Origin: Paracoccus yeei ATCC BAA-599
GTDB taxonomy: Bacteria > Pseudomonadota > Alphaproteobacteria > Rhodobacterales > Rhodobacteraceae
Assembly (NCBI RefSeq): GCF_000622145.1
Contig: NZ_JHWH01000020.1
Location: 1 to 64,000 of the forward strand
DNA: 64,000 bases
Reading direction: 5' to 3'
A program made the position numbers and the translations under genes. Below, piece after piece: positions 10,972 to 53,919 of this stretch (position 1 is its first letter; each line of letters starts with the position of its first letter). Below the pieces are notes generated by a model. That model searched no databases. It saw only the letters and a program-made list of their open reading frames with translations, and was not told the origin of the DNA.

Positions 10972-10975
10972 ACCC

Positions 10976-11905: not shown

Positions 11906-11913
11906 GGTGGCCC

Positions 11914-13764: not shown

Positions 13765-13848
13765 ACGGGCAGGGGTCGCCCGCAGCCATGACCGCCGGAG
13801 GCCTCATCCGGTCCCGGCTGCCTTTTGAACGCTTCAGGGGATGCTTCC

Positions 13849-15782: not shown

Positions 15783-15836
15783 CATTCCCTTCCGGCCGAC
15801 TGCGCCGAACCGCTTGACACTCGAACCGAGGTTTCC

Positions 15837-19630: not shown

Positions 19631-19636
19631 CCAAAG

Positions 19637-21016
19637 ATGCAGCCCGCGAGCCCCTATCCGCTGACGCAGCGGCTGGCCCATGTCCTGGCCGCGCGCCTGG
19701 CCCCCGGCGCCGATCTTGACCAGCAGGCGCTGGCGGCGGTGTCGCGCGCGCTGCTGGACACGATCGGCGTCATGGTGGCGGGCTGCGCCGAGGCGCCCGT
19801 CACCCGGCTGGCCCCGGTCCTGACCGCAGCCGACGGGCCGTCGATGGCGCGCGAGGCGGCCATGCTTCTGGGCACGGCCGCCCATGCGCTGGATTTCGAC
19901 GATGTCGCTTTCGGCGGTCATGTCAGCGCCGTGCTGGTGCCGGCGCTGCTGGCGGCCAGTCTGGGCCGGCCGGTCTCGGGTGCGGATTTCGCGCGCGCCT
20001 ATGTCGCGGGATACGAGGTCTGGTCCGAACTCGCCACCCGCGACCGCGACATGTATCACCGGCGCGGCTTTCACCCGACCCCGGTTCTGGGCGCGGTCGC
20101 GGCGGCGGGTGCGGTCGCGGTGCTGCTGGGTCTGGATCGGGCGCGGATCGCGGCGGCTTTGGGACTGGGGGCCAGCATGGCCGCGGGGCTGGTGGTCAAT
20201 TTCGGCTCGATGGCCAAGCCCTTTCACGCCGGGCGCGCGGCCGAGGCCGGGCTTCTGGCCGCGCAGCTGGCGCAAGGCGGCATGGGCGCCAGCGACGATG
20301 CGCTTGAGGGCGCCAAGGGGTTTCTGGCCTGCTTCACGCCGCAGGGCGCCGTGGACCGGGACCGGGCCCTGAACTGCGAGGAAACGCCCGGCTGGATGCT
20401 GGCCCGCCGCCAGCCCAGCGTGAAGCGCTATCCGGTCTGCTATGCGGCGCATCGGGCGGTGGATGCGGCGGTGGCGCTGTCGACGCGGCTGCCCGCGCAG
20501 GCGGGGCTGCGGGTCGAGGTGACGACCAGCGACCGCCACAGCACGACGCTGCGCTTTCGCGACCCGGCGACCGTGTCCGAGGCGCGTTTCAGCCTGGAGT
20601 TCTGCGTGGCCACGGCGCTGCTGCGGGGACGGCTGGGGCTGGCCGAACTGGGCGATGCGGGGCTGGCCGCGCCGGAGGTGCGGGCGCTGATGCCCCAGAT
20701 CTCGCGCCGGATCGCCGACCATCGCGATCCCGCTCTGGACGGCTATGCGCTGTTCGACCGGGTCGAACTGTTCGACGCATCGGGCGCGTCCCTGGCGGCG
20801 CAGGAGGTTCGCCGTCCGCGCGGGCATGCCGACAATCCGGCGGATTTCGCCGATCTGCTGGCCAAGTTCCACGATTGCGTCGCCAGGGGCGGATTGCCCG
20901 AAGGCTGGGCCGCGCGCATCGCCGGTCTGTGCGAGGCGCCGGCCGGTATCGAGACCGTGGCGCCGCTCGCCGCCGATCTGCTGGGCGTTGCTCGGGGGAT
21001 GCCGGGGCGTCGATGA
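19637..21016 (+). CDS. MmgE/PrpD family protein
   Basis: A 459-residue protein of the MmgE/PrpD fold, which includes 2-methylcitrate dehydratase, cis-aconitate decarboxylase and iminodisuccinate epimerase. Visible family segments include VSRALLDTIGVMVAG, GTAAHALDFDDVAFGGH and VKRYPVCYAAHRAVDA. No prpC or prpD partner lies in this operon, so a methylcitrate role is unlikely; an epimerase, dehydratase or decarboxylase acting on a dicarboxylate made by the racemase-hyuAB steps is more likely. Its stop overlaps the MFS start by 4 nt. Confidence 0.85.
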   Translation: MQPASPYPLTQRLAHVLAARLAPGADLDQQALAAVSRALLDTIGVMVAGCAEAPVTRLAPVLTAADGPSMAREAAMLLGTAAHALDFDDVAFGGHVSAVLVPALLAASLGRPVSGADFARAYVAGYEVWSELATRDRDMYHRRGFHPTPVLGAVAAAGAVAVLLGLDRARIAAALGLGASMAAGLVVNFGSMAKPFHAGRAAEAGLLAAQLAQGGMGASDDALEGAKGFLACFTPQGAVDRDRALNCEETPGWMLARRQPSVKRYPVCYAAHRAVDAAVALSTRLPAQAGLRVEVTTSDRHSTTLRFRDPATVSEARFSLEFCVATALLRGRLGLAELGDAGLAAPEVRALMPQISRRIADHRDPALDGYALFDRVELFDASGASLAAQEVRRPRGHADNPADFADLLAKFHDCVARGGLPEGWAARIAGLCEAPAGIETVAPLAADLLGVARGMPGRR

Positions 21017-22245
21017 CGGTTCTGCCGGGGGTGCTTGGCGCGCTGCGCTGCCGGGCCTATCGCCATTTCACGATCGGCAACGTTCCGTCGCTGCTGGGCC
21101 AGTGGGCGCAGCGCACGGCGCTGGCCTGGCTGATGTGGCGGATGACGCATTCCGGCACCTGGATCGGCGCGCTGGCCTTTGTCGAGCTGGCGCCGATGGT
21201 GTTGCTGTCGCCGCTGACCGGCGTGCTGGCGGATCGCTGGCGCTATCTGCGGGTCATGCGGGCGGTGCAGCTGCTGCTGGCCGGGCAGGCGCTGGCGCTG
21301 TTCGCCCTGGCGCGGTGGGGCGACGGGGCGCTGACGCCGGGACTGATGCTGGTCCTGGTGGGGCTGGGCGGCATCGCCACGGCGGTCGACAACCCGTTCC
21401 GCCTGTCGCTGGTGCCGATGCTGGTGCCGCGTCCCCGGCTGGCGGATGCGCTGGCGCTGAACTCGATGCTCTTCAACCTGGCCCGCTTTGCGGGGCCCAT
21501 GCTCGCGGCGGCGCTGCTGGCGTCGGGCGGCGCGGCGCTGGCCTTCATCGCCAATGCGCTGGCCGCGCTGCTGTTCTGCGCTGCCCTGCATCTGCTGCGC
21601 GACCCCCCGCTTGCGCGGCCCCCGACACCCGAGCCCTTGGGCCGCATGTCCCGCGACGGGCTGGGCTATGCCTTTTCGCATCCCGGGCTGCGGTTGATGA
21701 TGGGCATCTCGGTCGCGGCGGCGCTGCTGGCGCGCTCGGTCCCGGAAATCCTGCCGGGCTATGCCGCGCTGTTCGGCCATGAGGCCGAGCTGTTCGCGCG
21801 CATGTCCGCCGTGGTGGGCGCCGGCGCGATGCTGGGCGGCATCCTGGTGGCGCGCGGACGCTCGCCGCGCCGGCTGGCGCTGATGGCGCTGACGGCGGCG
21901 GGCGCGCTGGCCTGCATCGTCATCCTGCTGGCGCTGGCGCCGGGGCGGGTGCCCGCGCTGGCGCTGCTGTTCCTGCTGGGCACGGCCCTGGTGGTCAGCG
22001 CGGTGTCCAACCTGAGCGTGATCCAGATGACCGCGGACCCGTCGCGTCGGGGCCGCGTGTTGTCCCTGCACACGATGATCTTTCGCGGCGGTCCGGCGGC
22101 GGGCGCGTTGGCCATCGGCGGCCTGTCCGATCTTGTCGGCCTGCGCCTGGTCCTGGCCTTCTCCGGCGGGCTGTGCCTGATCCTGGCGCTGTGGTGCGCA
22201 TCGCGCCGTCAGCCCGGGCTCGCCAGCCTCCTGGACGAGCCCTAG
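21013..22245 (+). CDS. MFS transporter (EntS-like group)
   Basis: A 410-residue major facilitator with about 12 membrane segments; the N-terminus FTIGNVPSLLGQWAQRTALAWLMWRMT and PLTGVLADRW (loop 2-3 motif) resemble MFS_3 exporters. As last gene of the operon it may export an end product or toxic intermediate; import is also possible. It overlaps the MmgE/PrpD stop (ATGA) and meets the convergent GntR gene with a 4-nt overlap. Confidence 0.85.
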   Translation: MTVLPGVLGALRCRAYRHFTIGNVPSLLGQWAQRTALAWLMWRMTHSGTWIGALAFVELAPMVLLSPLTGVLADRWRYLRVMRAVQLLLAGQALALFALARWGDGALTPGLMLVLVGLGGIATAVDNPFRLSLVPMLVPRPRLADALALNSMLFNLARFAGPMLAAALLASGGAALAFIANALAALLFCAALHLLRDPPLARPPTPEPLGRMSRDGLGYAFSHPGLRLMMGISVAAALLARSVPEILPGYAALFGHEAELFARMSAVVGAGAMLGGILVARGRSPRRLALMALTAAGALACIVILLALAPGRVPALALLFLLGTALVVSAVSNLSVIQMTADPSRRGRVLSLHTMIFRGGPAAGALAIGGLSDLVGLRLVLAFSGGLCLILALWCASRRQPGLASLLDEP

Positions 22246-22940
22246 TCCTCGGCCCGGGCATCCAGGCTGAACAGCATGCGGTGCTGCTGCGATGACCGGA
22301 TATGCTTGCGCGCCGCCTCTTCCGCGCCTTCGCGGTCGCGCGCCAGCAGGGCCTTGACGATGGCGCGATGTTCCTCGGCAGCGGATTGGGCCCGGTCGCC
22401 CTTGTCCAGCAGGCTGGGCAGCAGCGACATCGTCAGCGTCAGCTGCGACAGGCTGCGCAGCAGATAGCGGTTGTGCGCGGCCAGCATCATCAGCCGGTGG
22501 AAGTTGCGATTGATTTCCACCAGCGCGCCGATGTCGCCCAGCGACTGGGCCTCCTTGTTGCTCAGCTCCTCCAGCATGGACAGCTCGATATCGCTGGCGC
22601 TTTGCGCGGCCAGGCGCGCCGAGGCGCCCTCCAGGATCTCGCGCATGAAATACAGCTCGACCACCTGCTGATGGCTCAGGACGGTGACCACGAGCCCCCG
22701 GCGCGGCTCGTTCGTCAGCAGCCCGTCCGCTTCAAGCCGGGAAACGGCATCGCGCACCGGGGTACGCGAGACGCCGAAACGCTCGGCCAGGTCGACCTCG
22801 GTCACCCGGTCGCCCACGCGCAGCGCCCCGGTGGTGATTTCCTTGCGCACCATGTCATAGATGTCGGAAACCAGGTCTCCCGAAGCCGAGGCCGTGCGCG
22901 ATCGGGGGCGGGACGAGGTTTCGGATTTCTCACGGGACAT
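22242..22940 (-). CDS. GntR-family regulator, FCD subfamily
   Basis: A 232-residue regulator with a winged HTH at about residues 25-90 (LAERFGVSRTPVRDAVSRLEADGLL) and a C-terminal FCD ligand domain, whose metal-binding His/Asp pattern includes NFHRLMMLAAHNRYL and AAEEHRAIVKAL. FCD regulators bind carboxylates or amino acids. It is divergent from the binding-protein gene at 23204 and convergent with the dpp/hyu operon, so it is the best candidate local regulator of both. The first 20 residues are Ser/Arg-rich and non-conserved. Confidence 0.9.
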   Translation of the reverse strand: MSREKSETSSRPRSRTASASGDLVSDIYDMVRKEITTGALRVGDRVTEVDLAERFGVSRTPVRDAVSRLEADGLLTNEPRRGLVVTVLSHQQVVELYFMREILEGASARLAAQSASDIELSMLEELSNKEAQSLGDIGALVEINRNFHRLMMLAAHNRYLLRSLSQLTLTMSLLPSLLDKGDRAQSAAEEHRAIVKALLARDREGAEEAARKHIRSSQQHRMLFSLDARAED

Positions 22941-23093
22941 GTGGGTTCTGTCTCTTAAGTATGGATGGAACGGGCAGTTTTCCCTCTATAAGCGCAGTGC
23001 CGTCGATTTCACAACGATTTGCACAATGGCCGCCCATTGTTCCGGCATGGCGGCCGCGTAGGTATTCCTTCCTTTGGCAGCACAAAGAAAAGC

Positions 23094-23116
23094 ATAAAAA
23101 AACTCTTGCCTCCAAG
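23094..23116 (+). promoter_or_regulatory. A-tract plus palindrome element, copy 2
   Basis: CATAAAAAACT followed by CTTGCCTCCAAG, again a TTG-N4-CAA dyad next to an A-tract. It matches the element at 9839-9862 closely in sequence and order. It lies 88 nt before the binding-protein start, within the GntR/binding-protein intergenic region. Confidence 0.5.
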
Positions 23117-23151
23117 CGGACGATGGACCTAGCCTTCCGGCATAAAGACAC

Positions 23152-23161
23152 ATGTATACAT
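23152..23161. promoter_or_regulatory. Candidate GntR operator ATGTATACAT
   Basis: A perfect 10-bp palindrome with the TGTATACA core seen in many FCD-type GntR sites. It lies between the GntR gene and the binding-protein gene, 42 nt before the latter's ATG. Related cores occur at 31357-31362 and 53910-53917. Confidence 0.5.
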
Positions 23162-23203
23162 ATGATTTTTCATGTGTGCCCAGTGAGAACAGGAGAGGTC
23201 AGG

Positions 23204-24808
23204 ATGACAATCGCGCGCAGGGGATTTCTGGGCATGGCCGGGGCGGCGGCGACATTGCCCTGGTGGGGCATGGGGCGGGTGCTGGCGGCCGAACCCGGCG
23301 GAACGCTGACCATCGGCCTGTCGACCGAGCCGACGGCGATCGACCCGCATTGGCACCTGGTCAGCCAGAACAATGCCCTGGCGCAGCATATCTTCGACCG
23401 GGTGGCGCATGGCAAGCCCGACATGACCGTCGGGCCGGGCCTTGCCGAACGCTGGAAGGCGCTGGACGAACTGACCTGGGAATTCACCTTGCGCGACGGC
23501 GTGCGCTTTCACAACGGCGACCCGCTGACCATCGAGGACATCGCCTTCACGCTTGAGCGCGCGCAGAACGTTCCGGGCGCGATCTTCAACATGCGCAGCT
23601 ATCTTCAGGACAAGGTGCTGGAAAAGGTCAGCGACCGGGTGTTCCTGATCCGCACGCCGATCCCGAACCCGGTGGTCGCCGATGAGCTGTCCACCTGCGC
23701 CATCGTCTCGAAGGCGGTGGCAGGCACGGCCACGACCGACGATTACAACAGCGGCAAGGCCGCCATCGGCACTGGCCCCTACAAGCTGGTCGAGGCCGAT
23801 CTGACCAGCCGCATCGTGCTGGCCCGGAACGAGGATTACTGGGGCGAGAAGCCCAGCTTCACGCAGGTGGTCATCCGCCCGATCCCGGTCGGCGGCTCGC
23901 GCATCGCGGCGTTGCGGGCCCGCGACGTCGATCTGATCGACAAGGTGCCCCCGGCGGATGTGAAGGGGCTTGAGGCGCTGTCCGACGTCGCGCTTGCGCG
24001 CGGTACGCCGAACCGCTGCATCTTCCTGACCATGGACCAAAGCCGCGCGGTCTCGCCCTTCGTGCGCGGCAAGGATGGCGGGGAAATCCCGAACGTCCTG
24101 CGCGATCACCGTGTGCGCGAGGCGATGAACCTGGCGATCGACCGTAAGGCGATCTGCGACCGCATCCTGGGCGGCAACGGCATTCCGGCCAGGCAGCTAG
24201 TCCCCGACACCATCTTTGGCGCCAGCCCCGACCTGGCGCTGCCGGCGGTCGATCTGGACCGCGCCAAGGCCCTGCTGGCCGAGGCGGGCCTGCCTGACGG
24301 CTTCAGCCTGACGCTGCACGGCCCGAACGACCGCTTCATCCGCGATTCCGAGGTGACGCAGGCGGTTGCCCAGATGCTCAGCCGCATCGGCATCGCGGTG
24401 CAGGTCGACACCATGCCCGCCAGCGTCTTCTATCAGCGCGCGACCAGCGGCGGGCCCGAGGGCGGCTCGACCTACAGCTTCTTCCTGGTGGGCTATGGCG
24501 CCAGCATGGGCGACAGCGGCCCGTCGCTGCGCAACGTGCTGATGACGCAGGACAAGGAAAAGGGCCACGGCGCCAACAACCGCCTGCGCTATTCCAACCC
24601 CGAGGTGGATGCGCTGGTGCTGGAAGGCCAATCCACCATGGACGATGCCAAGCGGGCCGCGCTTTATGGCCGCGCCAGCAAGATGGCGATGGACGATGTC
24701 GCGATCATCCCGCTGTATCACCCGGTCGATGTCTGGGCGTTCAAGTCGGGGCTGACATATGCCGGACGCAACGATGAGCGGACGCTTGCGATGGATGTCG
24801 GCATCTGA
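23204..24808 (+). CDS. Peptide-type ABC transporter binding protein (family 5), Tat-exported
   Basis: A 534-residue periplasmic solute-binding protein of the DppA/OppA type (GGTLTIGLSTEPTAIDPHW at the mature N-terminus; WEFTLRDGVRFHNGDPLTIEDIAFTLERA). The signal peptide has a twin-arginine motif, RRGFLG at residues 5-10, and likely cleavage near LAA-EPG. The start ATG 23204 has AGGAGAGG upstream. No permease or ATPase lies beside it; the only matching membrane genes are dppBC-DF at 9994-13764, so it probably serves that transporter. Confidence 0.9.
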   Translation: MTIARRGFLGMAGAAATLPWWGMGRVLAAEPGGTLTIGLSTEPTAIDPHWHLVSQNNALAQHIFDRVAHGKPDMTVGPGLAERWKALDELTWEFTLRDGVRFHNGDPLTIEDIAFTLERAQNVPGAIFNMRSYLQDKVLEKVSDRVFLIRTPIPNPVVADELSTCAIVSKAVAGTATTDDYNSGKAAIGTGPYKLVEADLTSRIVLARNEDYWGEKPSFTQVVIRPIPVGGSRIAALRARDVDLIDKVPPADVKGLEALSDVALARGTPNRCIFLTMDQSRAVSPFVRGKDGGEIPNVLRDHRVREAMNLAIDRKAICDRILGGNGIPARQLVPDTIFGASPDLALPAVDLDRAKALLAEAGLPDGFSLTLHGPNDRFIRDSEVTQAVAQMLSRIGIAVQVDTMPASVFYQRATSGGPEGGSTYSFFLVGYGASMGDSGPSLRNVLMTQDKEKGHGANNRLRYSNPEVDALVLEGQSTMDDAKRAALYGRASKMAMDDVAIIPLYHPVDVWAFKSGLTYAGRNDERTLAMDVGI

Positions 24809-24835
24809 TCGCAGCCTTGAGCCTGGGGGACCGGC

Positions 24836-26023
24836 GTGCAGAAGAACCGCAGCGATTTCGACCAGCATGTCGCCCAGGCCAGCGCGGCGCTTGAGCCGCG
24901 ACTGATCGCCCTGCGCCGCGATCTGCACCGCCATCCCGAGCTGGCCTTTCAGGAGCACCGCACCGCCGCGCGGCTGGTGGCCGAACTTGAGGCGGCAGGC
25001 CTGCAGCCGCGCGGCGGGATCGGCGGAACGGGCGTGGTCGTGGACATCGACGGCGGTGCGCCGGGGCCCTGCATCCTGCTGCGCGCCGATATCGATGCGC
25101 TGCCGATCCATGAGGCGACGGGCCTGCCCTTTGCCAGCGAAACGCCCGGCGTGATGCACGCCTGCGGCCACGACCTGCATGCGGCGATCGGGGCCGGGAC
25201 GGCGCTGGTCATGGCCGGGATCGCGCCGCGCCTGCATGGACGGCTGCGCATCGTCTTCCAGCCGGCCGAAGAGATCCTGGAGGGCGCGCAGGCGATGATC
25301 GACGACGGCGTCCTGGACGGCGTCGACATGGCCATCGGCTTTCACAACAAGCCGGACCTGCCGGTGGGTCGCTTCGGCATGGTCCACGGCGCGACCACGG
25401 CGTCGTCGGACCGCTTTGTCGTCACGGTGCGGGGGCAGGGCGGCCACACCGCGCGCATGCACCAGACCCGCAGCCCGATTCCGGCCGTCGCCTCGCTGGC
25501 GCTGGCCTTGCCCGCACTGGTGCCGGCGCTGGCCGATCCTGCGGTGCCCGCGATCCTGGGCCTGGGCATGATCCAGGCGGGCCATTCGCATAATGTGGTC
25601 CCCGACACCGCCAGCCTGTCGGGCACCTTGCGCACGCGGTCGGAGACGGTGCGCAACACGCTGCAGGCCGCCATCGCCCGGCAATGCCGGGCGGTGGCGC
25701 TGGCCCATGACGTGGAATGCGCGCTGGACTACAGGCGCGGCGTCTGCGCCCAGGTCAATGACGCGGCGCTGTTCGTCCCGGTGCGCGCCGCGCTGCGGGC
25801 GCGCTTCGGCGATGTCATCGACGAACTGCCACCCGGCATGGGGGCCGAGGATTTCGCCCTGTTCTCGGATGCGGTGCCGGGGTTCCGCTTCCACATCGGC
25901 TCGGGCCAGCCGGGGCGGAGCGACCGCGTGCACGCGCCCGACTACCAGCCGGACGAGGGCAGCATCCGCCTGGGTGTCGAAGCCTGCTGCGGCATCCTGC
26001 TGGAACTGCTGGCGCGGGCGTGA
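24836..26023 (+). CDS. M20-family amidohydrolase
   Basis: A 395-residue metal-dependent amidohydrolase (HipO/IAA-amino-acid hydrolase group) starting with GTG. Metal and catalytic residues are in HACGHD (108-113), RADIDALP (83-90) and FQPAEEILEGA. These enzymes remove acyl groups from N-acyl amino acids or cleave dipeptides. It lies 27 nt after the binding-protein gene with GGGGG upstream, so it likely processes the imported substrate, for instance by deacylating an N-acyl amino acid. Confidence 0.9.
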   Translation: MQKNRSDFDQHVAQASAALEPRLIALRRDLHRHPELAFQEHRTAARLVAELEAAGLQPRGGIGGTGVVVDIDGGAPGPCILLRADIDALPIHEATGLPFASETPGVMHACGHDLHAAIGAGTALVMAGIAPRLHGRLRIVFQPAEEILEGAQAMIDDGVLDGVDMAIGFHNKPDLPVGRFGMVHGATTASSDRFVVTVRGQGGHTARMHQTRSPIPAVASLALALPALVPALADPAVPAILGLGMIQAGHSHNVVPDTASLSGTLRTRSETVRNTLQAAIARQCRAVALAHDVECALDYRRGVCAQVNDAALFVPVRAALRARFGDVIDELPPGMGAEDFALFSDAVPGFRFHIGSGQPGRSDRVHAPDYQPDEGSIRLGVEACCGILLELLARA

Positions 26024-26031
26024 TCGCCGGT

Positions 26032-26805
26032 CTAGGTCGGCCAGCTTTTCCACAGCATGTAAAGCGCGACGGCAAAGATCAGCCCGGCAAAGACCGTGCT
26101 CAGCGTGCCCTTGCCCGACAGGCTGCGCGACAGGCGCGCCCCGTAAAGCCCGCCCGCGATGCCGCCGGCGACGAAGACGGCGGCCAGCCCCCAGGCGACC
26201 AGGCCGGAAAAGGCGTAATTCACCGCCGTCGTCAGCCCGAACGCCGTGACCGCGACCAGGCTGGTGCCCACCGCGTTGATGATCGGCATATGGGTCGAGG
26301 CGACCAGCCCCGGCACGATCAGGAACCCGCCGCCGATGCCGAAGAAGCCGGAAAACACGCCGGTCGCCAGTCCGAAGCCCATGACCTTGGGCGCGTTCTC
26401 GCGGTTGCATTGCGCGCCGGGTTCGCCGATGGCGCGACGGTTGCGCAGCATCAGCCCGCCGACCGCCAGCATCAGCAGCGCGAACAGGAACAGCAGCTTC
26501 TGCCCGTCGATCGCCATGCCCAGGGTCGAGCCGAGCACGGCCCCCAGGATCCCCGCCGCCGCATAGATGCCGCCGCAGCGCCATTTGACCGTCTGCGCGC
26601 GCGCGTGGTGCGACAGGCTGGCCGCCGCATTGACCGCGACCGCAAGGGCGCTGGTGCCGATGGCCACGTGGGGATCGGCCACGCCCACGACATGGACCAT
26701 CAGCGGCACCGACAGGATCGAGCCGCCGCCGCCGACCAGTCCCAGGGTCAGCCCGACCAGCGCTCCCGACAGGCCGCCGAGCGCGTAATGCAATATATCG
26801 ATCAT
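26032..26805 (-). CDS. TauE/SafE family anion exporter
   Basis: A 257-residue membrane protein with about eight segments and the family N-terminus GLTLGLVGGGGSILSVPLMVHVVG plus GTSALAVAVNAAASL. Members export sulfite, sulfoacetate or other sulfonates. It is the last gene of a minus-strand operon, 21 nt after the DUF442-SQR gene, and is expected to expel sulfite made by the persulfide dioxygenase. Confidence 0.88.
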   Translation of the reverse strand: MIDILHYALGGLSGALVGLTLGLVGGGGSILSVPLMVHVVGVADPHVAIGTSALAVAVNAAASLSHHARAQTVKWRCGGIYAAAGILGAVLGSTLGMAIDGQKLLFLFALLMLAVGGLMLRNRRAIGEPGAQCNRENAPKVMGFGLATGVFSGFFGIGGGFLIVPGLVASTHMPIINAVGTSLVAVTAFGLTTAVNYAFSGLVAWGLAAVFVAGGIAGGLYGARLSRSLSGKGTLSTVFAGLIFAVALYMLWKSWPT

Positions 26806-26826
26806 ACGGAATGTCCTGGGGCGGGC

Positions 26827-28503
26827 CTATCTGGCCGTGGGCAGCTTTTCGGGACGCGCCAGCCATTCGCGGCCGCGCAGCATGGCCTGCCAATAGATCG
26901 GCGGCAGCATCCGCTCTTTCAGGAACCACGCGGCCCGGCTGGGGCGGGTGCCGTCCAGAAGCGCCTTCGGGAACGAGGGTTTCAGCGCGCCGCCATAGCC
27001 GAATTCGGCCAGGACGATCTTGCCGCGCTCGACCGTCAGCGGGCACGAGCCGTAGCCGTCGTATTGCGCGGCCGGTCCTTGCCCGCGAATGTCGGCGATG
27101 ACGTTTTCCGCGACCACCGGCGCCTGCTTGCGGGCCGCGGCGGCGGTCTTGGCGTTGGGTGCGTTCGTCACGTCGCCCAGCGACCAGATGTTGTCATGCG
27201 CCTTGTGGCGCAGCGTCGCCTGGTCGACGTCGACCCATCCCGCCGCATCCGCCAGGGCCGAGGCGCGGATGAAATCGGGTGCGACCTGCGGCGGACAGAC
27301 ATGGATCATGTCGAAGTCGCGCTCGACCCGGCGGGCCGGCTGACCGGGTTCGGCGACGTCAAAGACCGCGCGGCGGCCCGGCCCGTCGATGGCGACCAGA
27401 TCGTGAAAGAAGTTCAGGCCCGCGTCATAGCGCCGGACATAGTCCATCAGCGCCGGGACGTAGTCCTTGACCCCGAAAAGCACGCCGCCGGCATTCATGA
27501 ACTCGATCCGGATGTTGCCGAGCACGCCCGCGCGCAGCCAGGCGTCGCCCGACAGATACATGGCCTTTTGCGGCGCACCGGCGCATTTGATCGGCATCGG
27601 CGGCTGGGTGAAGATGGCGCGGCCGGATCTTAGCCCGCTGACCAGTTCCCAGGTATAGGGCGCGAGGTCGTAGCGGTAATTCGAGGTGACGCCGTTCAGG
27701 CCCAGCGTCGCTTCCAGGCCCTCGATCCGGCCCCAGTCCAGCTTGATGCCGGGGCAGACGATCAGCCGGTCATAGCGGACCACCCGGCAGGCGTCGATGA
27801 TCACCGCATCGTTCGCGGGATCGAAGGCGGCGACGGCGGCCCTGATCCAGCGCACGCCGCGCGGGATCAGCGATGCCATGGTGCGGGCCGTGGTCGCCGC
27901 CCGAAAGACCCCGCCGCCGACAAGGGTCCAGCCGGGCTGGTAGTAATGCACCTCGGCCGGGTCGATCAGCGCGATGTCCAGATCGGGCATCCGCCTGCGC
28001 AGGCTGGCCGCCACGGCGATGCCGGCCGCCCCGCCGCCGACGATGACGACATCGGCATGGGCGTCGGCGCTGTCGGTGGGGGTGCGCCCGCCATGGGCGA
28101 TGCGGCGGACGATGCCGGACATGTCAAGGCCGGCCGCCTTGGTCCGTTCGACGATCTGCGCGATCGGGCGCTGCCCGGCCTGCGCCAGCGACCACAGGCT
28201 GGCCGAGCGGATCCCGGTGCGGCAATAGGCCAGCACCGGGCCCGGCAGGTCCGACAGGGCCTGGGCGAAAGCTGCGGCGTCGGCATCGCGCACCATGCCG
28301 GGCTGGACCGGCAGGTAAAGCGCCTGCAACCCCGCCGCCGCGGCCGCCTGCGCGATGGCCTGAAAGCCCGGCTGGTCCGCAGCCTCGCCATCGGGGCGAT
28401 TGCAGATCACGCTGCGAAAACCCTGGGCTGCAAGGCCGGGCAGGTCTTGCGGGAAAAGCTGCCCCGAAACGGCGAATCCCGGCTCTATCTGGCGGCGATC
28501 CAT
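26827..28503 (-). CDS. DUF442 phosphatase-like domain fused to sulfide:quinone oxidoreductase
   Basis: A 558-residue two-domain protein. Residues 1-120 are a DUF442/Blh-type tyrosine-phosphatase-like domain with the CxxxxxR loop C94-RTGIR-S. Residues 150-558 are a flavoprotein of the SQR family: GGGAAG at 156-161 for FAD, PGWTLVGGG, QPPMPIKCAGAPQK, and cysteines in IVCPG, IKCAG and HVCPP that could carry the persulfide. SQR oxidises sulfide at the membrane to persulfide and passes electrons to quinone. Context with persulfide dioxygenase and TauE supports sulfide oxidation. The role of the DUF442 part is not established. Confidence 0.9.
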   Translation of the reverse strand: MDRRQIEPGFAVSGQLFPQDLPGLAAQGFRSVICNRPDGEAADQPGFQAIAQAAAAAGLQALYLPVQPGMVRDADAAAFAQALSDLPGPVLAYCRTGIRSASLWSLAQAGQRPIAQIVERTKAAGLDMSGIVRRIAHGGRTPTDSADAHADVVIVGGGAAGIAVAASLRRRMPDLDIALIDPAEVHYYQPGWTLVGGGVFRAATTARTMASLIPRGVRWIRAAVAAFDPANDAVIIDACRVVRYDRLIVCPGIKLDWGRIEGLEATLGLNGVTSNYRYDLAPYTWELVSGLRSGRAIFTQPPMPIKCAGAPQKAMYLSGDAWLRAGVLGNIRIEFMNAGGVLFGVKDYVPALMDYVRRYDAGLNFFHDLVAIDGPGRRAVFDVAEPGQPARRVERDFDMIHVCPPQVAPDFIRASALADAAGWVDVDQATLRHKAHDNIWSLGDVTNAPNAKTAAAARKQAPVVAENVIADIRGQGPAAQYDGYGSCPLTVERGKIVLAEFGYGGALKPSFPKALLDGTRPSRAAWFLKERMLPPIYWQAMLRGREWLARPEKLPTAR

Positions 28504-28540
28504 GTCTGTTCCTCCTGATGCGAACGAAAGGCCGCCTGCG

Positions 28541-29416
28541 TCACAGCAGGTTGACGGGGACTTTCAGATAGTGGTTGCCGCTGTCATCGGCGGGCGGCAA
28601 CGCGCCTGCGCGCATGTTCACCTGCAGGGACGGGATGATCAGCCGGGGCATGTCGAGTTGCGCATCGCGCGCGGTGCGAAAGGCGATGAATTCCTCGCGC
28701 GAGCGGCCGCCGCCGACATGGATGTTGTGGGCCTTTTCCTCGGCCACGGTGGTTTCCCAGGCGATCTCGCGCCCGTTCGGGCCATAGTCGTGGCAGATGA
28801 ACAGGCGGGTGTCGTCGGGCAGGGCCAGCACCTTCTGGATGCTGTCGTAAAGCGTGCCGGCATCGCCGCCGGGGAAATCGGCGCGCGCCGAGCCGCCGTC
28901 GGGCATGAACAGCGTGTCGCCGACGAAGGCCGCGTCGCCGATCACATGGGTCATGCAGGCGGGCGTGTGGCCGGGCGTGTGGATCGCGCGGCAGGTCATG
29001 GTGCCGATCTGATAGGTGTCGCCATCCTGAAACAGCCGGTCGAACTGGCTGCCGTCGCGCTGGAACTCGGTGCCTTCGTTGAAGATCTTGCCGAAGGTTT
29101 CCCGCACCACGGTGATCTGCGCGCCGATCCCCAGCCTGCCGCCAAGCGCGGCCTGGATATAGGGCGCGCCGGACAGGTGATCGGCATGGACATGCGTTTC
29201 GATCAGCCATTCAAGGCGCAGGTTGCGGTCCCGCACGAAGGCGATGATCTGGTCGGCGTGCCGGTAGCTGATGCGCCCGGCGGCATAGTCGATGTCCATC
29301 ACCGAATCGATGACGGCGCAGGCATCCGAGGCCGGATCCTGGACCACATAGGAAACCGTATTGGTCGCCGGGTCGAAAAAGGCGGTGACCAGCGGGGACA
29401 CGGGATTGTCAGTCAT
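28541..29416 (-). CDS. Persulfide dioxygenase-like metallo-beta-lactamase protein (ETHE1/Blh type)
   Basis: A 291-residue MBL-fold protein. The motif T-H-V-H-A-D-H covers H75, H77, D79 and H80, followed by HTPGHTPACMTHV, VGDTLFMPDGGSARADFPGGD and ICHDYGP. This matches the non-haem Fe persulfide dioxygenase group, which oxidises glutathione persulfide to sulfite. It lies between a GntR gene and the SQR fusion in one operon. Blh-type lactonase activity cannot be excluded. Confidence 0.9.
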   Translation of the reverse strand: MTDNPVSPLVTAFFDPATNTVSYVVQDPASDACAVIDSVMDIDYAAGRISYRHADQIIAFVRDRNLRLEWLIETHVHADHLSGAPYIQAALGGRLGIGAQITVVRETFGKIFNEGTEFQRDGSQFDRLFQDGDTYQIGTMTCRAIHTPGHTPACMTHVIGDAAFVGDTLFMPDGGSARADFPGGDAGTLYDSIQKVLALPDDTRLFICHDYGPNGREIAWETTVAEEKAHNIHVGGGRSREEFIAFRTARDAQLDMPRLIIPSLQVNMRAGALPPADDSGNHYLKVPVNLL

Positions 29417-29441
29417 GGCGAACCTCTTGCGGGCGTTCCTG

Positions 29442-30101
29442 TCAGGGGGCTTCGGCCAGCATCTTCAGGCGGATGGCGAAGCCTTCGGCGATATGCGTGC
29501 GCGCGGCCCGTTCGGCGCCTTCGCCGTCACGGGCAGCGATGGCCTCGACGATGGCCTCGTGCTCGGCCTGCGCGGTCAGGATGCGGGACGGCGTGGCATA
29601 AGTCGAGCCGGGCAGCAGGCTGAGATGGACGCTGAGATTGTTCAGCGCCTCGATCATGTAATCATTGTGCGACGCCTGCACGATCTGGCGGTGCAGCAGC
29701 TTGTTGCGCTGCACCAGGCGTTCGCGGTCGGCGGTGCGCCGGTCCTCGGCCACCATCTCGCGCAGCAGCGCGATCTCGGCGAAGGACGCGTGCGAGGCCG
29801 CAAGGCGCGTCGCCATCCCCTCCAGCCCCTCGCGGACCGCGAACAGCTGCCGAAGCTGGTCATAGCTCATATGGGCGATGATCAGCCCGCGCTGCCGCCC
29901 GGGCGTGGCCAGGCCCATCGCGTGCAGCCGGTGCAGCGCCTCGCGCACGGGGGTGCGGCTGATGCCAAGGCGCTCTGCCAGTTCGGTCTCGCGCAGCCGA
30001 TGTCCGGGGCGCAGCTCGCCCTTTTCGATCAGGTCCAGCAGGTGTTCGAACGGGCTGCGCCGGTCGGCGATCTGCCTGTGGCCCTGGAGCTGGCCCGTCA
30101 T
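29442..30101 (-). CDS. GntR-family regulator, FCD subfamily
   Basis: A 219-residue GntR/FCD regulator; HTH at LAERLGISRTPVREALHRLHAMGL and FCD domain with HRQIVQASHNDYM and EHEAIVEAI. The ATG at 30101 is taken as start; a TTG at 30158 would overlap the upstream PLP gene and adds non-conserved residues. It is placed second in a five-gene sulfur operon, between the C-S lyase and the persulfide dioxygenase, and probably regulates it through a site in the 31306-31437 gap. Confidence 0.88.
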   Translation of the reverse strand: MTGQLQGHRQIADRRSPFEHLLDLIEKGELRPGHRLRETELAERLGISRTPVREALHRLHAMGLATPGRQRGLIIAHMSYDQLRQLFAVREGLEGMATRLAASHASFAEIALLREMVAEDRRTADRERLVQRNKLLHRQIVQASHNDYMIEALNNLSVHLSLLPGSTYATPSRILTAQAEHEAIVEAIAARDGEGAERAARTHIAEGFAIRLKMLAEAP

Positions 30102-30138
30102 CGCAGGCTGCCCCGGATCGGGGAAGGGCGACGGCGGA

Positions 30139-31305
30139 TCATGCGCGCAGCCGATCAAGGCCCTTGCGAAGCTCGTCGATCAGATCGGCCGGATCCTCAA
30201 GCCCGACATGGATGCGCACGGTCTGGCCGCCGGGGTTCCATTCCGTCGCGCTGCGATAGACCGAGGGATTGCTGGGCACGATCAGGCTTTCATAGCCGCC
30301 CCAGCTCGACCCCATGCCGAACAGCGAAAACCCGTCGAACATCCGCGCCAATGCGTCATGCTCGACCGATTTCATCACGAAGCCGAACAGGCCCGAGGCG
30401 CCGGTGAAGTATTTCCGAAACAACGCGTGGCCGGGGTCCTGCGGCAGGGCCGGGTGCATGACGCGCAGCACCTCGGGCTGTTCCAGCAGCCAGTTCGCGA
30501 CCTGAAGCCCGCTGGCGTGGTGATGGCGCATGCGCACGCCGATGGTGCGCAGTCCGCGCAGCGCCAGATAGGCGTCGTCCGAACCGACGCAGACCCCGAA
30601 ACGCAGGTAGGTTTCGCGCAGGCGGTCATAGATTGCGGCGCTGCAGGCGATGGTGCCCAGCATCAGGTCCGAATGACCCGAGATATACTTGGTCCCGGCC
30701 TGCACCGAGATGTCGACGCCATGCGCGATCGGCTGGAAGAAATAGCCGCCGCTCCAGGTGTTGTCGATGGCGGTGGTGACGCCGCGGCGGCGGGCGACCT
30801 CGGTGATGGCGGCCACGTCCTGCACCTCGAAGGTCTGCGAGCCGGGCGATTCCATCCAGATCAGCCTGGTTTCGGGGCGGATCAGTGCCTCGATCCCGGC
30901 GCCGATGGCCGGGTCGTAATAGGTCGTCTCGATGCCGAACTTGCGCAGGGTGAATTCGCAGAACTTGCGCGTCGGACCATAGGCGTTGTCGGTCACAAGG
31001 AAATGCGCGCCGGGTTCGGCATGGCTCATCAGCACGGTGCTGAGCGCGCTGACGCCCGAGGGGGCGACAAGCGCGCGTTCGGCGCCCTCCAGCGCGCAGA
31101 TCGCATCCTCCAGGGCATGCGTCGTTGGCGTGCCGCGACGGCCATAACGCAGCTTGGCGCCTTCCTTGGCCTCCAGCGCCGCCAGGTTCGGAAACAGAAT
31201 CGTCGAGGCCCGATACACAGGCGTGTTCACCATGCCGAAATGCTGCTCCGGCGCACGGCCGCTGTGGGTCACCCGTGTGTCGAGACAGAGATTCTTATTC
31301 TTCAT
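30139..31305 (-). CDS. Cystathionine beta-lyase-like PLP enzyme (C-S lyase), paralog 2
   Basis: A 388-residue trans-sulfuration-family PLP enzyme with the Schiff-base lysine K206 in QAGTKYISGHSDLMLG. It shares long matching segments with the enzyme at 13849-15057 (HGAVNTPVYRAS / FGMVNTPVYRAS, HPALPQDPGHAL). It heads a minus-strand operon with GntR, persulfide dioxygenase, SQR fusion and TauE, which implies that its sulfur product is sulfide or persulfide. AAGGAAG precedes the ATG. Divergent from an amino-acid binding protein. True MetC function is possible, but the operon points to catabolism. Confidence 0.88.
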   Translation of the reverse strand: MKNKNLCLDTRVTHSGRAPEQHFGMVNTPVYRASTILFPNLAALEAKEGAKLRYGRRGTPTTHALEDAICALEGAERALVAPSGVSALSTVLMSHAEPGAHFLVTDNAYGPTRKFCEFTLRKFGIETTYYDPAIGAGIEALIRPETRLIWMESPGSQTFEVQDVAAITEVARRRGVTTAIDNTWSGGYFFQPIAHGVDISVQAGTKYISGHSDLMLGTIACSAAIYDRLRETYLRFGVCVGSDDAYLALRGLRTIGVRMRHHHASGLQVANWLLEQPEVLRVMHPALPQDPGHALFRKYFTGASGLFGFVMKSVEHDALARMFDGFSLFGMGSSWGGYESLIVPSNPSVYRSATEWNPGGQTVRIHVGLEDPADLIDELRKGLDRLRA

Positions 31306-31335
31306 GGGATCGCTTCCTTAGAGTTCTGTTCCCTG

Positions 31336-31366
31336 TTGCATACTTCTAAATACATCTGTACACAAT
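31336..31366 (+). promoter_or_regulatory. Promoter and GntR-like operator between C-S lyase and aapJ
   Basis: TTGCAT (31336-31341) and TACACA (31359-31364) are 17 nt apart and could drive aapJ. The -10 region overlaps CTGTACACAAT, a relative of the TGTATACA core found at 23152 and 53910 (TGTACA at 31357-31362). A 9-bp inverted repeat, CATACTTCT/AGAAGTATG at 31339-31347 and 31384-31392, brackets the area. Confidence 0.4.
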
Positions 31367-31437
31367 AGGGCATGGGCGTTGACAGAAGTATGGGCACGAA
31401 GCTTGCCAAGCCCTTCCAGCAGAGAGAGGAGATCGGA

Positions 31438-32478
31438 TTGAACAAGGTAAAGACTGTCGGCCTGTCCGCGGTGACGGGCCTGGTGCTTGCGGTCGCGGCC
31501 GCTCCGGCCGCGGTTGCGGATTCGGGCGACACGCTGGCTTCGGTCAAGGCGCGGGGCGAGCTTTTGTGCGGCGTGCATCCGGCGCGCCATGGCTTTGCGG
31601 CCCCTGACAGCCAGGGCAAGTGGAGCGGCTTCGAGGTCGATTTTTGCCACGCCCTGTCCGCCGCGATCTTTGGCGACGCGAACAAGGTGCGCTTTGTCGC
31701 GCTGTCCTCGCAGCAGCGTTTCCCGGCGATCCAGTCGGGCGAGGTGGACGTGCTGGCCCGCAACGTCAGCGCGACGCTGGGGCGCGACACGGCGCTGGGG
31801 CTGAACTTCGCTCCGCCGGTCTTTTACACCGGCACGGGCTTTCTGGTCCGCGAAGCCGACGGCATCGCCAAGATCGAGGATCTGGACGGCGCCACCATCT
31901 GCATGGCACCCGGATCGACGACCGAGCGCAACGTGGCGCAGATCTTTGCCGCGCGCGGCATGAGCTATACCCCGGTCGTGATCGAGAACAACAAGCAGCT
32001 GGTCGACGCCTATGTCACCGGCCGCTGCGACGCGCTGACCAAGGACAAGGCGGCGCTGCCCGGCGTGCGCGCCTTTGACACGCAGGACCCGTCGGCCCAT
32101 GTCATGCTGCCCGGCATCTATTCCAAGGAGCCGCTGGCGATGGCCGTCCGCCAGGGCGACGACCAGTGGTACGATCTGGTCAAATGGGTGACCTACGCCA
32201 CCTTCAACGCCGAGGAACTGGGTGTCACCCAGGCCAATGTCGACGAGATGAAATCCTCCGAGGATCCTGACATCCAGACCCTCTTGGGCGTGATCGGCGA
32301 CAACGGCACCAAGCTGGGCGTCGACAATGCCTGGGCCTACAACGTCGTCAAGCAGGTCGGGAACTACGAAGACATCTACATGCGGCACTTCGGCCCCGAC
32401 ACGCCGGTGGCCCTGGAACGGGACCAGAACACGCTGTGGACCGAGGGTGGCCTGCTTTACGGCTTCCCGATGCAGTAA
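31438..32478 (+). CDS. aapJ: General L-amino acid ABC transporter binding protein (AapJ-like)
   Basis: A 346-residue periplasmic binding protein of family 3 and the AapJ group (TLASVKARGELLCGVHPARHGFAAPDSQGKWSGFEVDFCHALSAA region). The TTG at 31438 is chosen because GAGAGAGGAG lies at normal spacing and it yields a standard Sec signal peptide with cleavage near AVA-DSG; the ATG at 31372 would put 22 extra residues before it. Its partners should be AapQ, AapM and AapP, but only aapQ is intact here. Confidence 0.92.
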   Translation: MNKVKTVGLSAVTGLVLAVAAAPAAVADSGDTLASVKARGELLCGVHPARHGFAAPDSQGKWSGFEVDFCHALSAAIFGDANKVRFVALSSQQRFPAIQSGEVDVLARNVSATLGRDTALGLNFAPPVFYTGTGFLVREADGIAKIEDLDGATICMAPGSTTERNVAQIFAARGMSYTPVVIENNKQLVDAYVTGRCDALTKDKAALPGVRAFDTQDPSAHVMLPGIYSKEPLAMAVRQGDDQWYDLVKWVTYATFNAEELGVTQANVDEMKSSEDPDIQTLLGVIGDNGTKLGVDNAWAYNVVKQVGNYEDIYMRHFGPDTPVALERDQNTLWTEGGLLYGFPMQ

Positions 32479-32563: not shown

Positions 32564-33760
32564 ATGACTGACGCCACTCCGGCCAGAGGCGGGAAACGTC
32601 CCGCCAGGAGCCTGAAGGACATCCTGAACAGCGAAGCCTTTCGCACCCTGATCTATCAGGTCGCGCTGGCTGCCGCCGTCGTCCTTCTTGGCCTTTATCT
32701 TTATCAGAACGTGGTCACGAACCTGCAGCGCCAGAGCATTGCGACCGGCTTCGCCTTTCTCGACCAGGTCTCGCAGTTCGAGATCGGCGAGAAGCTGATC
32801 GCCTACAGCCCGCGAGACACCTATGGCCGCGCGCTGCTGGTCGGGTTGCTGAACACCCTGACCGTTTCCGCCGCCGGCATCGTCGTCGCCACCGTCATCG
32901 GCTTTTCGGTGGGGATCGCGCGGGTATCCAGCAACTGGCTGCTGCAACGCATCGCGCTGACCTATGTCGAGATCGTGCGCAACATCCCGGTGATCCTGCA
33001 GGTGATCTTCTGGTCCGCGGTGATCCGCAACCTGCCCGCGCCGCGCCAGGCGGTCGAGCTGTTCGGCCTGGGCTTCGTCAGCAACCGCGGCCTGTCCTTC
33101 GCCGTCCCGGCCGCCGATCCGGCGCATGTCTGGATGGGGGCCGCGATGGTGCTGGGCATCGTGCTGACCGTGATCGGCACCCGCATGGCCAAGCGCCACC
33201 GCGAGAACACCGGCAAGTATGTCGACATGCTGCTGCCGGGCATCGGCCTGATCCTGGGCCTGCCGCTTCTGGTCTGGCTGGCCTTCGGCGCCCCCCATGT
33301 CATCAGCTTCCCCGAGCGCAAGGGCTTCAGCTTTGCCGGCGGCGCGTCGATCAGCCCCGAATTCGTCGGCCTGATGCTGGGGATTTCGCTGTATTCCTCG
33401 GGCCTCATCGCGGAAATCGTCCGCGCCGGCATCCAGGCCACGCCCAAGGGCCAGGTCGAGGCCGCGCGCTCGATCTCGCTGCGGCCGCGCTTCATCCTGC
33501 GCTATGTGGTGCTGCCGCAGGCGCTGCGGGTGATCGTGCCGCCGCTGACCAGCCAATATGTCAGCCTGATCAAGAACAGCTCGATCGCGGTCGTCGTCGG
33601 CTATCCCGACCTGGTGAACATCGGGAACACCGTGATGAACCAGACCGGGCAGGCGGTCGAGGCCATCGCCGTGATGATGCTGGTCTATCTGATCATCAGC
33701 CTTGTCACCTCGACCCTGATGAACGTCTACAACCGCCTCGTGGCGATCAAGGAGCGGTAA
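32564..33760 (+). CDS. aapQ: General L-amino acid ABC transporter permease (AapQ-like)
   Basis: A 398-residue permease with an N-terminal helix, a long periplasmic insert and the permease core with EAA loop (ATPKGQVEAARSISLRPRFILRYVVLPQALRVIVPPLTSQY). This architecture is specific to AapQ/BztB. It follows aapJ, and a 5' fragment of aapM follows 3 nt later. Because aapM is broken and aapP is absent, this permease cannot work unless the other subunits come from elsewhere. Confidence 0.92.
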   Translation: MTDATPARGGKRPARSLKDILNSEAFRTLIYQVALAAAVVLLGLYLYQNVVTNLQRQSIATGFAFLDQVSQFEIGEKLIAYSPRDTYGRALLVGLLNTLTVSAAGIVVATVIGFSVGIARVSSNWLLQRIALTYVEIVRNIPVILQVIFWSAVIRNLPAPRQAVELFGLGFVSNRGLSFAVPAADPAHVWMGAAMVLGIVLTVIGTRMAKRHRENTGKYVDMLLPGIGLILGLPLLVWLAFGAPHVISFPERKGFSFAGGASISPEFVGLMLGISLYSSGLIAEIVRAGIQATPKGQVEAARSISLRPRFILRYVVLPQALRVIVPPLTSQYVSLIKNSSIAVVVGYPDLVNIGNTVMNQTGQAVEAIAVMMLVYLIISLVTSTLMNVYNRLVAIKER

Positions 33761-33897: not shown

Positions 33898-34496
33898 CGC
33901 CCCGCGAAACCGTCGGCTCGGTCACCGGCAAGCTGATGCCCACCGGAAATCCCCGCGACGGGATCGACGGCGTCGCCGTCACCTGCCTGGATGTCGCCAT
34001 GCCCGTGGTCATCGCCCGGGCCGAGGCTTTCGGCCTGACCGGCACCGAGACCCCCGAGGAGCTGGATGCCGACACCGGCTTCATCGCCCGGCGCGAGGCG
34101 ATCCGCATCAAGGCCGGGGCGCTGATGGGCATGGGCGATGTTTCCGGCTCGGTGACGCCGAAATTCGCCATCATGGCACCGGCGCGCCACGGCGGCGCGG
34201 CCAGCGCGCGCTATTTCATGCCGCAGACCTGCCATCCCAGCATGGCGGTGACCGGGGCGCAATGCCTGGCCGCCGGACTGCTGGTGCCGGGCAGCGTGAC
34301 CGAAGACCTTGCGCAGGTCGGCCCGAGCCCGGCCCTGCTGGTGCTGGAGCATCCCTCGGGCAGCATCGGCGTCGTGGTGGAATACGAGGCTGCCGGTCCG
34401 GACAGGCCGCCGGCGCTGCACTCGGCCGGGATCATGCGCACCGCGCGGCTGCTGGCGCGGGGCGAGGTGATGATCCCCGCCTCGGTCTGGTCCTGA
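33898..34496 (+). pseudogene. 3' fragment of a PrpF/4-oxalomesaconate tautomerase-type gene
   Basis: About 198 codons of the C-terminal half of a PrpF/LigU/GalD-like isomerase. Recognisable segments are MPTGNPRDGIDGVAVTCLD, MPVVIARAEAFGLTGTE, KAGALMGMGDVSGSVTPK and FMPQTCHPSMAVTGAQ. The first half, with one lobe of the diaminopimelate-epimerase-like fold, is absent, so the gene is non-functional. It begins at the junction with the aapM fragment. The AbrB-type gene 10 nt downstream probably belonged to the same former operon. Confidence 0.72.
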
Positions 34497-53842: not shown

Positions 53843-53908
53843 GATTTCTCCTCTCCCTGGCGAATGCGGGGTCGAATCGACCAGAATGTCGCGGATTATT
53901 GGCTATTA

Positions 53909-53919
53909 CTGTATACAAT
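53909..53919. promoter_or_regulatory. Candidate GntR operator CTGTATACAAT
   Basis: TGTATACA core (53910-53917) in an AT-rich gap between the tcu-ABC operon and the divergent GntR gene. On the minus strand TTGTTG and TAATAG, 17 nt apart, could be its promoter, with the dyad just upstream of the -10. It resembles the sites at 23152 and 31357. Confidence 0.5.

Follow-up and report, generated by a model that had tools for sequence, protein, structure and literature searches.

In Paracoccus yeei, five intact plasmid-borne genes lie on the minus strand of the window (the whole 64,000-nt stretch analyzed here, from strain ATCC BAA-599) in the order lyase, GntR/FCD regulator, persulfide dioxygenase (PDO), DUF442–SQR fusion and TauE-type exporter (26032–31305). 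Judged by gene neighborhoods in other genomes, this operon is a chimera of a lyase–GntR module and a PDO–SQR–exporter cassette, which are separate elsewhere. We consider it fairly probable that in this plasmid-borne chimeric operon a sulfide-to-sulfite cassette has been brought under the promoter of the lyase–GntR module. Substrate-induced sulfide disposal, with a food molecule rather than sulfide as the trigger, is plausible from the sequence evidence. If true, an organosulfur catabolic operon would have taken on sulfide detoxification as its final, waste-handling step, and the locus would provide a concrete case in which a sulfide-oxidation cassette has acquired a new regulator.

Gene families and layout of the operon

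The initial annotation had described five closely packed genes with gaps of about 20–40 nt and had assigned them to the PLP lyase, GntR/FCD, PDO, DUF442–SQR and TauE families. Recomputed gaps were 37, 25, 37 and 21 nt in operon order, and Pfam and NCBIfam profiles together with solved relatives bore out all five assignments. These gaps place the GntR start at ATG 30101 (29442–30101, minus strand; 219 aa). Three plasmid annotations use this ATG, and it is a better start than the listed TTG at 30158, from which the ORF overlaps the lyase gene. The distance of 25 nt from the GntR stop codon to the PDO start supports the view that there is little room for a promoter in this gap; a PDO promoter may lie within the GntR gene, and the five genes are probably co-transcribed. 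A scan of positions 25800–31600 revealed no promoter-like site, but none was detected upstream of the lyase either, so the scan has little power, and terminator-like sites in the same region occurred at the chance rate (three found, 2.6 expected). An Rfam scan of the window returned one tRNA and nothing else. Operon order and reading frames were intact on all three P. yeei plasmid records having the lyase at 99% or above, and the five genes showed 26–34 synonymous versus 6–8 non-synonymous codon differences per plasmid (a plain count, with no formal test). Because order and frames were kept and the differences were mostly synonymous, the arrangement appears to be more than chance.

The first gene (30139–31305, minus strand) encodes a MetC-type PLP-dependent C–S lyase with a conserved PLP core. 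The protein scored 356 bits against PF01053 and 471 bits against the cystathionine β-lyase model TIGR01324, above its curated cut-off of 366, and kept the eight listed Escherichia coli MetC residues (Y56, R58, R59, Y111, K210, S339, W340 and R372), as would an ordinary cystathionine β-lyase of methionine synthesis, in which case the operon would have no catabolic meaning. We regard this as very unlikely. Four PF01053 genes are present in the genome, two of them MetC-like and within the window, while those outside it encode the MetZ and MetY sulfhydrylases; no cystathionine γ-synthase was found in the genome, and the methionine-synthesis role, which the initial annotation had named as an outcome that would refute its reading, is disfavored and was rejected on this ground. 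The lyase is also accessory in its distribution (3 of 125 genomes of the genus at E ≤ 1e-110, its own included), and it has transporter and PrpD genes as neighbors. Furthermore, D116 and Y338 of MetC are replaced by lysine and serine, and these residues (K114 and S333 of the lyase) were invariant in 13 of 13 distinct orthologues, although many other compared lyases also deviate from MetC at these positions in the residue table, whose 15 rows at 70% identity or more represent 11 genomes. D116 presumably has a role in distal binding. It is termed an active-site residue of MetC in the title of a work cited in PMC5025676. The best candidate substrate, though a doubtful one, is a thioether with two carboxylates, for example S-(2-succino)cysteine; the substrate and product of the lyase, including release of sulfide or persulfide, are putative.

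The PDO (28541–29416, minus strand) has an MBL fold (PF00753), full-length solved MBL relatives that include ETHE1 (E = 3e-23 to the human protein) and the metal motif HVHADH at residue 75, consistent with an ETHE1-type enzyme; among NCBIfam models, the dioxygenase half of Blh matches it best. In the following gene (26827–28503, minus strand), a sulfur transferase-like DUF442 domain (TIGR01244, above cut-off) is fused to an SQR resembling human SQOR (E = 9e-92), in which Cys307 and Cys487 align with the two SQOR cysteines that we take to be the catalytic pair. The last gene (26032–26805, minus strand) encodes a TauE/SafE-type exporter (PF01925, 168 bits). By family, these three proteins constitute a complete sulfide-to-sulfite route, with a presumed flux through SQR, PDO and TauE. 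A search of the genome yielded a single SQR and a single PDO, the sole further match being 24% identical. That three of the five genes form such a route would also fit an operon serving sulfide tolerance, with GntR responding to a signal linked to sulfide or persulfide and the lyase only supplying or scavenging cysteine-derived thiols. However, GntR and the operator-like site described below are kept with amino-acid transporter modules whose stretches, as far as read, show no sulfide genes, and we rate this very unlikely, the least probable of the readings.

Occurrence of the two modules in other genomes

Elsewhere, the lyase–GntR home module faces an amino-acid ABC transporter and is accompanied by IDS-epimerase-like PrpD proteins. 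None of 80 named lyase loci, 52 of which span at least 20 kb, matched PDO, SQR or TauE at E ≤ 1e-10, and 12 other genomes have the lyase module with no PDO in the stretch read, which argues against the earlier suggestion that sulfide disposal inherently begins with the lyase. Lyase absence in G146, labeled as the same species, was left out because only scattered pieces of the region appear on its contig.

The cassette was examined in 44 DUF442–SQR loci, comprising 40 order-level loci (chosen from 130/390 matching genomes) and L035–L038, with two loci from G084; L039 (a partial gene) and L040–L042 (SQR without a close fusion) had been left out before the count. None of the 44 matched any of four PF01053 queries, and among 40 class-level PDO loci (chosen from 91/289 matching genomes) the only PF01053 match was a MetY-like gene on the opposite strand, at a distance of more than 4 kb. 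A Crp/FNR-type gene was present in 30 of the 44 loci and a SulP permease in 38, TauE instead of SulP being a cassette variant seen in G026 and G697. The G026 cassette lies downstream of genes for an ABC transporter, a class V PLP enzyme and a dihydropyrimidinase (named by eye); a spacer of about 1.07 kb that shows no clear gene separates it from the upstream genes, so it was not counted as a second coupling. The view that sulfide operons are usually led by a BigR/ArsR-type regulator did not hold for this order, where the Crp/FNR type prevails and no ArsR-type family was found among the 25 commonest of 68 families (133 upstream proteins), a ranking in which a single-member family may be hidden. 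By contrast, the comparison loci agree with the proposal that the lyase and GntR occupy the place of the cassette's usual own regulator.

In the related Paracoccus genome G011, the first GntR gene is directly followed by a second GntR/FCD gene, which in the window lies at 22242–22940 (minus strand), about 6.4 kb away. The block absent between the two GntR genes of G011 (22960–29441) comprises PDO–SQR–TauE and the convergent M20 and solute-binding protein genes; its left edge falls at approximately 22959 or at 23026, depending on the alignment.

The five-gene neighborhood sought in the initial annotation was thus found on three of three P. yeei plasmid records that have the lyase, but at none of the lyase loci or cassettes elsewhere. 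An arrangement known in P. yeei only, lyase loci elsewhere without PDO, cassettes elsewhere without lyase, and a lyase module partly deleted beside an intact cassette would all be expected if the cassette had landed behind lyase–GntR by chance, mostly using a weak or internal promoter of its own and having no functional link to the lyase. We assign this explanation an appreciable but minor probability, given the little promoter room between GntR and PDO, the lack of a Crp-type gene in the operon, the order kept on three other plasmids with mostly synonymous change, and a genome without a second SQR or close second PDO. As a counterpoint to the chimeric operon under the lyase–GntR promoter that we prefer, an arrangement in one species only could be a young neutral fusion.

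Regulator, transporter module and proposed pathway

The product of the second operon gene combines an N-terminal GntR HTH domain (PF00392, 57 bits) with a C-terminal FCD domain (PF07729, 88 bits), indicating that it belongs to the FCD subfamily. It is the sole regulator within the operon, in which families known for sensing sulfide or persulfide, such as BigR or SqrR, are not represented. An operator-like site (31349–31365, minus strand) lies in the intergenic region of the divergent lyase and AapJ genes, about 60 nt before the start of the lyase. A second copy with two mismatches (23152–23168, plus strand) precedes the gene for a peptide-type (family 5) solute-binding protein (23204–24808, plus strand; PF00496), at −55 from the start used, which was set by comparison with P. 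yeei plasmid L149. The window contains three matches to TTGTATACATATGTTTT at up to three mismatches versus 0.00 expected, and the site occurred at −55 to −62 in all 12 modules in which a lyase of at least 73% identity faces AapJ. No copy was detected inside the operon, the best matches upstream of GntR, PDO, SQR and TauE having 8–10 mismatches. Likewise, none of 20 more distant AapJ-linked loci (45–62% lyase identity) had the site within 300 nt of the lyase on its upstream side (4–9 mismatches), suggesting that it is a feature of a close subgroup; with these 20 of the 28 named AapJ-linked lyase loci lacking it, its presence in all transporter-linked modules was rejected. GntR binding to the site and the GntR ligand are candidates, and either of the two GntR proteins may be the binder.

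Divergent from the lyase are genes for an AapJ-type amino-acid solute-binding protein (31390–32478, plus strand; PF00497) and an AapQ-type permease (32564–33760, plus strand; PF00528), both with starts set by the L149 comparison; an M20 amidohydrolase gene (24836–26023, plus strand; TIGR01891, 335 bits) is the convergent neighbor at the other end. Blastn placed a deletion joint at 33901–33903, where 7.15 kb present on L149 is missing, removing most of AapM, AapP, three PrpD proteins, a GST and the 5′ part of a tautomerase gene. The missing segment has only paralogous matches in the genome (longest, 76% over 652 bases). This strain has thus lost three PrpD enzymes along with some of the partner transporter, yet its cassette is intact. 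On the intact plasmid, the ABC transporter and three MmgE/PrpD proteins accompany the lyase module, an M20 protein is encoded nearby, and the best solved-structure match of these three PrpD proteins, and of the window's own PrpD, is IDS-epimerase. The locus marks an alphaproteobacterial module with a testable substrate, composed of a MetC-type lyase, an Aap-type transporter, three IDS-epimerase-like PrpD proteins and a GST.

An organosulfur or amino-acid substrate is favored as the controlling signal, because the operator-like site is common to transporter promoters and because the lyase home module has an amino-acid ABC transporter. In the pathway that we propose, a cysteine thioether would be imported, and the thioether or a derivative would bind GntR, which would then leave the operator-like site ahead of the lyase gene. 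Once the lyase had cleaved the C–S bond, sulfide would arise directly or in a later step; SQR would oxidize it to persulfide and PDO would produce sulfite, to be exported by TauE. Since the lyase module occurs elsewhere without a nearby sulfide cassette, the lyase product need not be sulfide. β-Elimination of most thioethers yields an organic thiol, so an extra step to sulfide may be needed.

Comparison with known systems

Our literature search, as far as the result listings go and with a "sulfide quinone oxidoreductase" query that may miss the colon spelling, found no description of a lyase/sulfide-cassette coupling; the main texts of the P. yeei genome papers PMC11578231 and PMC6209633 contain neither "cystathionine" nor "sulfide". 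The yxe/scm operon of Bacillus subtilis, which acts on S-(2-succino)cysteine, includes an ABC transporter, an M20 deacetylase and YxeQ (PMC9706529, PMC12757645), the last tabulated as similar to an MmgE/PrpD protein (PMC8752978). The P. yeei locus resembles it in its transporter, its MmgE/PrpD proteins (three on the intact plasmids) and the M20 protein nearby. Cleavage differs, being attributed there, in a pathway with N-acetylation, to the monooxygenase YxeK or the lyase 2SL, and here to a MetC-type PLP lyase. The main text of PMC9706529 contains no occurrence of cystathionine, PrpD or epimerase, and no YxeK, 2SL or YxeL acetyltransferase was seen among the neighbors, as identified by Pfam/NCBIfam or plasmid annotation only. 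The lyase module could be a third route for breaking down S-(2-succino)cysteine or a closely related dicarboxyethyl thioether, ending in sulfide release and wired in P. yeei to SQR–PDO–TauE under one GntR switch, a reading that we consider unlikely. Import would be followed by stereo-correction by the IDS-epimerase-like PrpD proteins and cleavage by the MetC-type lyase, whose invariant lysine at the position of MetC Asp116 would hold the extra carboxylate.

The lyase shares its family and PLP core residues with E. coli MetC (1CL1) but differs in D116→K and Y338→S, in its linkage to transport and sulfide genes, and in a genome without cystathionine γ-synthase. Compared with the Rhodobacterales PDO–DUF442–SQR–SulP cassette, the P. 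yeei operon has a homologous PDO and DUF442–SQR fusion in the same order, whereas the former typically carries a Crp/FNR-type gene (30/44) and SulP (38/44) and never a PF01053 lyase (0/44). In the bigR operon of Xylella and Agrobacterium, as outlined in PMC5823870, sulfide is converted to sulfite via a DUF442 sulfur transferase and an ETHE1-type dioxygenase, with a TauE-related sulfite transporter. DUF442, the ETHE1-type dioxygenase and the TauE-related transporter are common to both operons, but DUF442 is fused to the dioxygenase there and to SQR here, and the sulfide-responsive BigR of that operon has its counterpart here in a GntR/FCD regulator situated behind a C–S lyase.

Layout of the operon and its copies on P. 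yeei plasmids

Five minus-strand genes lie close together in the window: a MetC-type PLP lyase, the first gene of the operon (30139-31305), a GntR/FCD regulator (29442-30101, with the ATG at 30101 as the better start), a persulfide dioxygenase (PDO; 28541-29416), a DUF442-SQR fusion (26827-28503) and a TauE exporter (26032-26805). The gaps between them are 37, 25, 37 and 21 nt, confirming their placing in the initial annotation. PDO keeps the HxHxDH motif, and two cysteines of SQR align with those of human SQOR. Terminator-like sites occurred in the operon region at chance rate, and no sigma-70-like promoter was detected in 25800-31600; as this includes the region upstream of the lyase, the scan carries little weight.

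Positions 15000-39000 are 99% identical to three P. yeei plasmids (NZ_CP044079, NZ_CP020443 and NZ_CP024427; coverage 92-100%), all of which carry the same five-gene order. Synonymous/non-synonymous codon differences between these plasmids and the window, over the five genes, were 34/6, 33/6 and 26/8, a pattern that would fit purifying selection. On pYEE1 (strain CCUG 32053) the right flank was present, and the island was not found within the 10 kb shown. In a further genome of the species (G146, one contig) pieces of the region are spread over the whole contig, those of at least 90% identity all being shorter than 250 bp; this suggests that the contig was assembled out of order or is otherwise unusual.

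Lyase module and sulfide cassette in other genomes

The lyase is scarce in the genus: at E<=1e-110 it turned up in 3 of 125 genomes, one of them the window's own. Orthologues with 71-94% identity occur in a related Paracoccus (G011), an uncultured Paracoccus (G035), Shinella, Xinfangfangia, Gemmobacter, Neorhizobium, Frigidibacter, Pseudotabrizicola, Aquamicrobium, Stappia, Sagittula and Ponticoccus. Except in Aquamicrobium, they are divergent from homologues of the amino-acid transporter genes AapJ/AapQ, with MmgE/PrpD genes close by (on the other strand in Frigidibacter). The three records whose annotation was read share the order AapJ-AapQ-AapM-AapP-three MmgE/PrpD-GST, and a GntR orthologue follows the lyase in G011 and six more loci (L057-L060, L062, L064). 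A plus-strand cluster at 9976-22245 is headed by another MetC-type lyase, which shares 60% identity with the first, and also encodes an Amdase/racemase-like protein, hydantoinase A and B, an IDS-epimerase-like PrpD and an MFS transporter, with Opp-type transporter genes ahead; similar clusters were seen in Tropicimonas (L066) and, in part, in Frigidibacter (L061) and Aquamicrobium (L063).

Among 80 named lyase loci, 52 of which hold at least 20 kb, not one gave a PDO, SQR or TauE match at E<=1e-10. Conversely, a PF01053 gene was absent from all 44 DUF442-SQR loci taken from the order and relatives, and 1 of 40 class-level PDO loci had one, MetY-like, more than 4 kb off and on the opposite strand. 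The operon therefore joins two modules that are elsewhere found separately. In G011, a second GntR gene follows almost directly after the first, whereas in the window some 6.4 kb separate the two (second GntR, 22242-22940), comprising PDO, SQR, TauE and convergent M20 and solute-binding protein genes. Similarity to G011 ends at the stop codon of the first GntR gene, and PDO starts 25 nt later. Since the cassette-free state is commoner, gain of the cassette in P. yeei is the simpler reading.

By Pfam-checked assignment, the 44 DUF442-SQR loci contained a Crp/FNR-type gene in 30 cases and a SulP permease in 38; TauE was present in 2, and a match to the first GntR in one (L166; 32% identity, downstream of the cassette). 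The view that a BigR/ArsR-type sensor usually leads such operons was not borne out in these loci: the 4.5 kb upstream of SQR encoded 133 proteins in all, 28 of them Crp-type and 6 Rrf2-type, and ArsR was absent from the 25 commonest families. A closely related PDO-SQR-TauE cassette in G026 (L035, 8900-17700) has an amino-acid ABC transporter, a class V PLP enzyme and a dihydropyrimidinase upstream (named by eye), with some 1.07 kb between that shows no clear gene; here such a cassette may have come close to a nitrogen/sulfur catabolic cluster a second time, independently.

An operator-like site upstream of the lyase

The sequence TTGTATACATATGTTTT or a close variant (0-3 mismatches) was located at -55 to -62 upstream of the lyase in all 12 modules with a transporter-facing lyase of at least 73% identity, the four P. 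yeei sequences being counted once. Aquamicrobium, with its other arrangement, has a 3-mismatch variant at -118. The site is confined to a close group: of the 28 named lyase loci that include an AapJ homologue, it occurs in the 8 close ones but is missing from the other 20 (Bosea among them), where lyase identity is 45-62% and matches within 300 nt have 4-9 mismatches. The window holds three matches within 3 mismatches, with none expected in shuffles. The one upstream of the lyase is no surprise, as the pattern was derived from its orthologues; a near-palindromic site, matching on both strands upstream of a peptide-type solute-binding protein, is an independent find. Nothing similar was seen upstream of GntR, PDO, SQR or TauE (best 8-10 mismatches). 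We infer that the operator-like site is the target of one of the two GntR proteins. Another ABC transporter set begins with a minus-strand solute-binding protein gene at 52736-53842; about 70 nt upstream of this gene, at 53903-53925, there is a TGTATACA site (TTATTGTATACAGTAATA), which possibly belongs to the same or a related GntR regulon.

The genome encodes a single PDO (only other match, 24% identity) and a single SQR (only other match, a lone DUF442 domain), so all sulfide oxidation of this kind in the strain may come under the operon switch.

Candidate substrate of the lyase and related systems

The PLP core of E. coli MetC is conserved in the lyase, but Asp116 is replaced by lysine and Tyr338 by serine in 13/13 orthologues; among more distant relatives, too, neither position is constant. 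Outside the window, the PF01053 enzymes of the genome are MetZ and MetY, which leaves the cystathionine route to methionine without its first enzyme.

Relative to the intact P. yeei plasmid (L149), 7.15 kb are missing at 33901-33903. This strain-specific deletion joins the beginning of AapM with the latter half of a 4-oxalomesaconate tautomerase gene, and the lost segment was not found elsewhere in the genome, paralogues excepted. The strain therefore has an incomplete Aap transporter and has lost three PrpD proteins and the GST, which weighs against the substrate-coupled reading. So does the possibility that the lyase yields an organic thiol in place of sulfide.

For those three PrpD proteins, as encoded on the intact plasmid, and one at 19637-21013, the best solved-structure match was IDS-epimerase, followed by the cis-aconitate decarboxylase type. 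IDS-epimerase is described as interconverting isomers of iminodisuccinate, a dicarboxyethyl amine (PMC7347537). In Bacillus, the yxe/scm locus, which serves S-(2-succino)cysteine, is reported to carry YxeQ together with an ABC transporter and an M20 deacetylase (PMC9706529, PMC12757645); YxeQ is entered in one table as similar to an MmgE/PrpD protein (PMC8752978). Such clues suggest, though they do not prove, a dicarboxylated cysteine thioether as the candidate substrate. P. yeei strains are said to be without the sulfur oxidation complex (PMC6209633), which fits sulfite export.

The initial proposal of an organosulfur-induced operon coupling C-S cleavage to sulfide disposal is thus supported in part, and substrate induction stands as a testable hypothesis. 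The lyase-headed operon is a variant on a known operon type.
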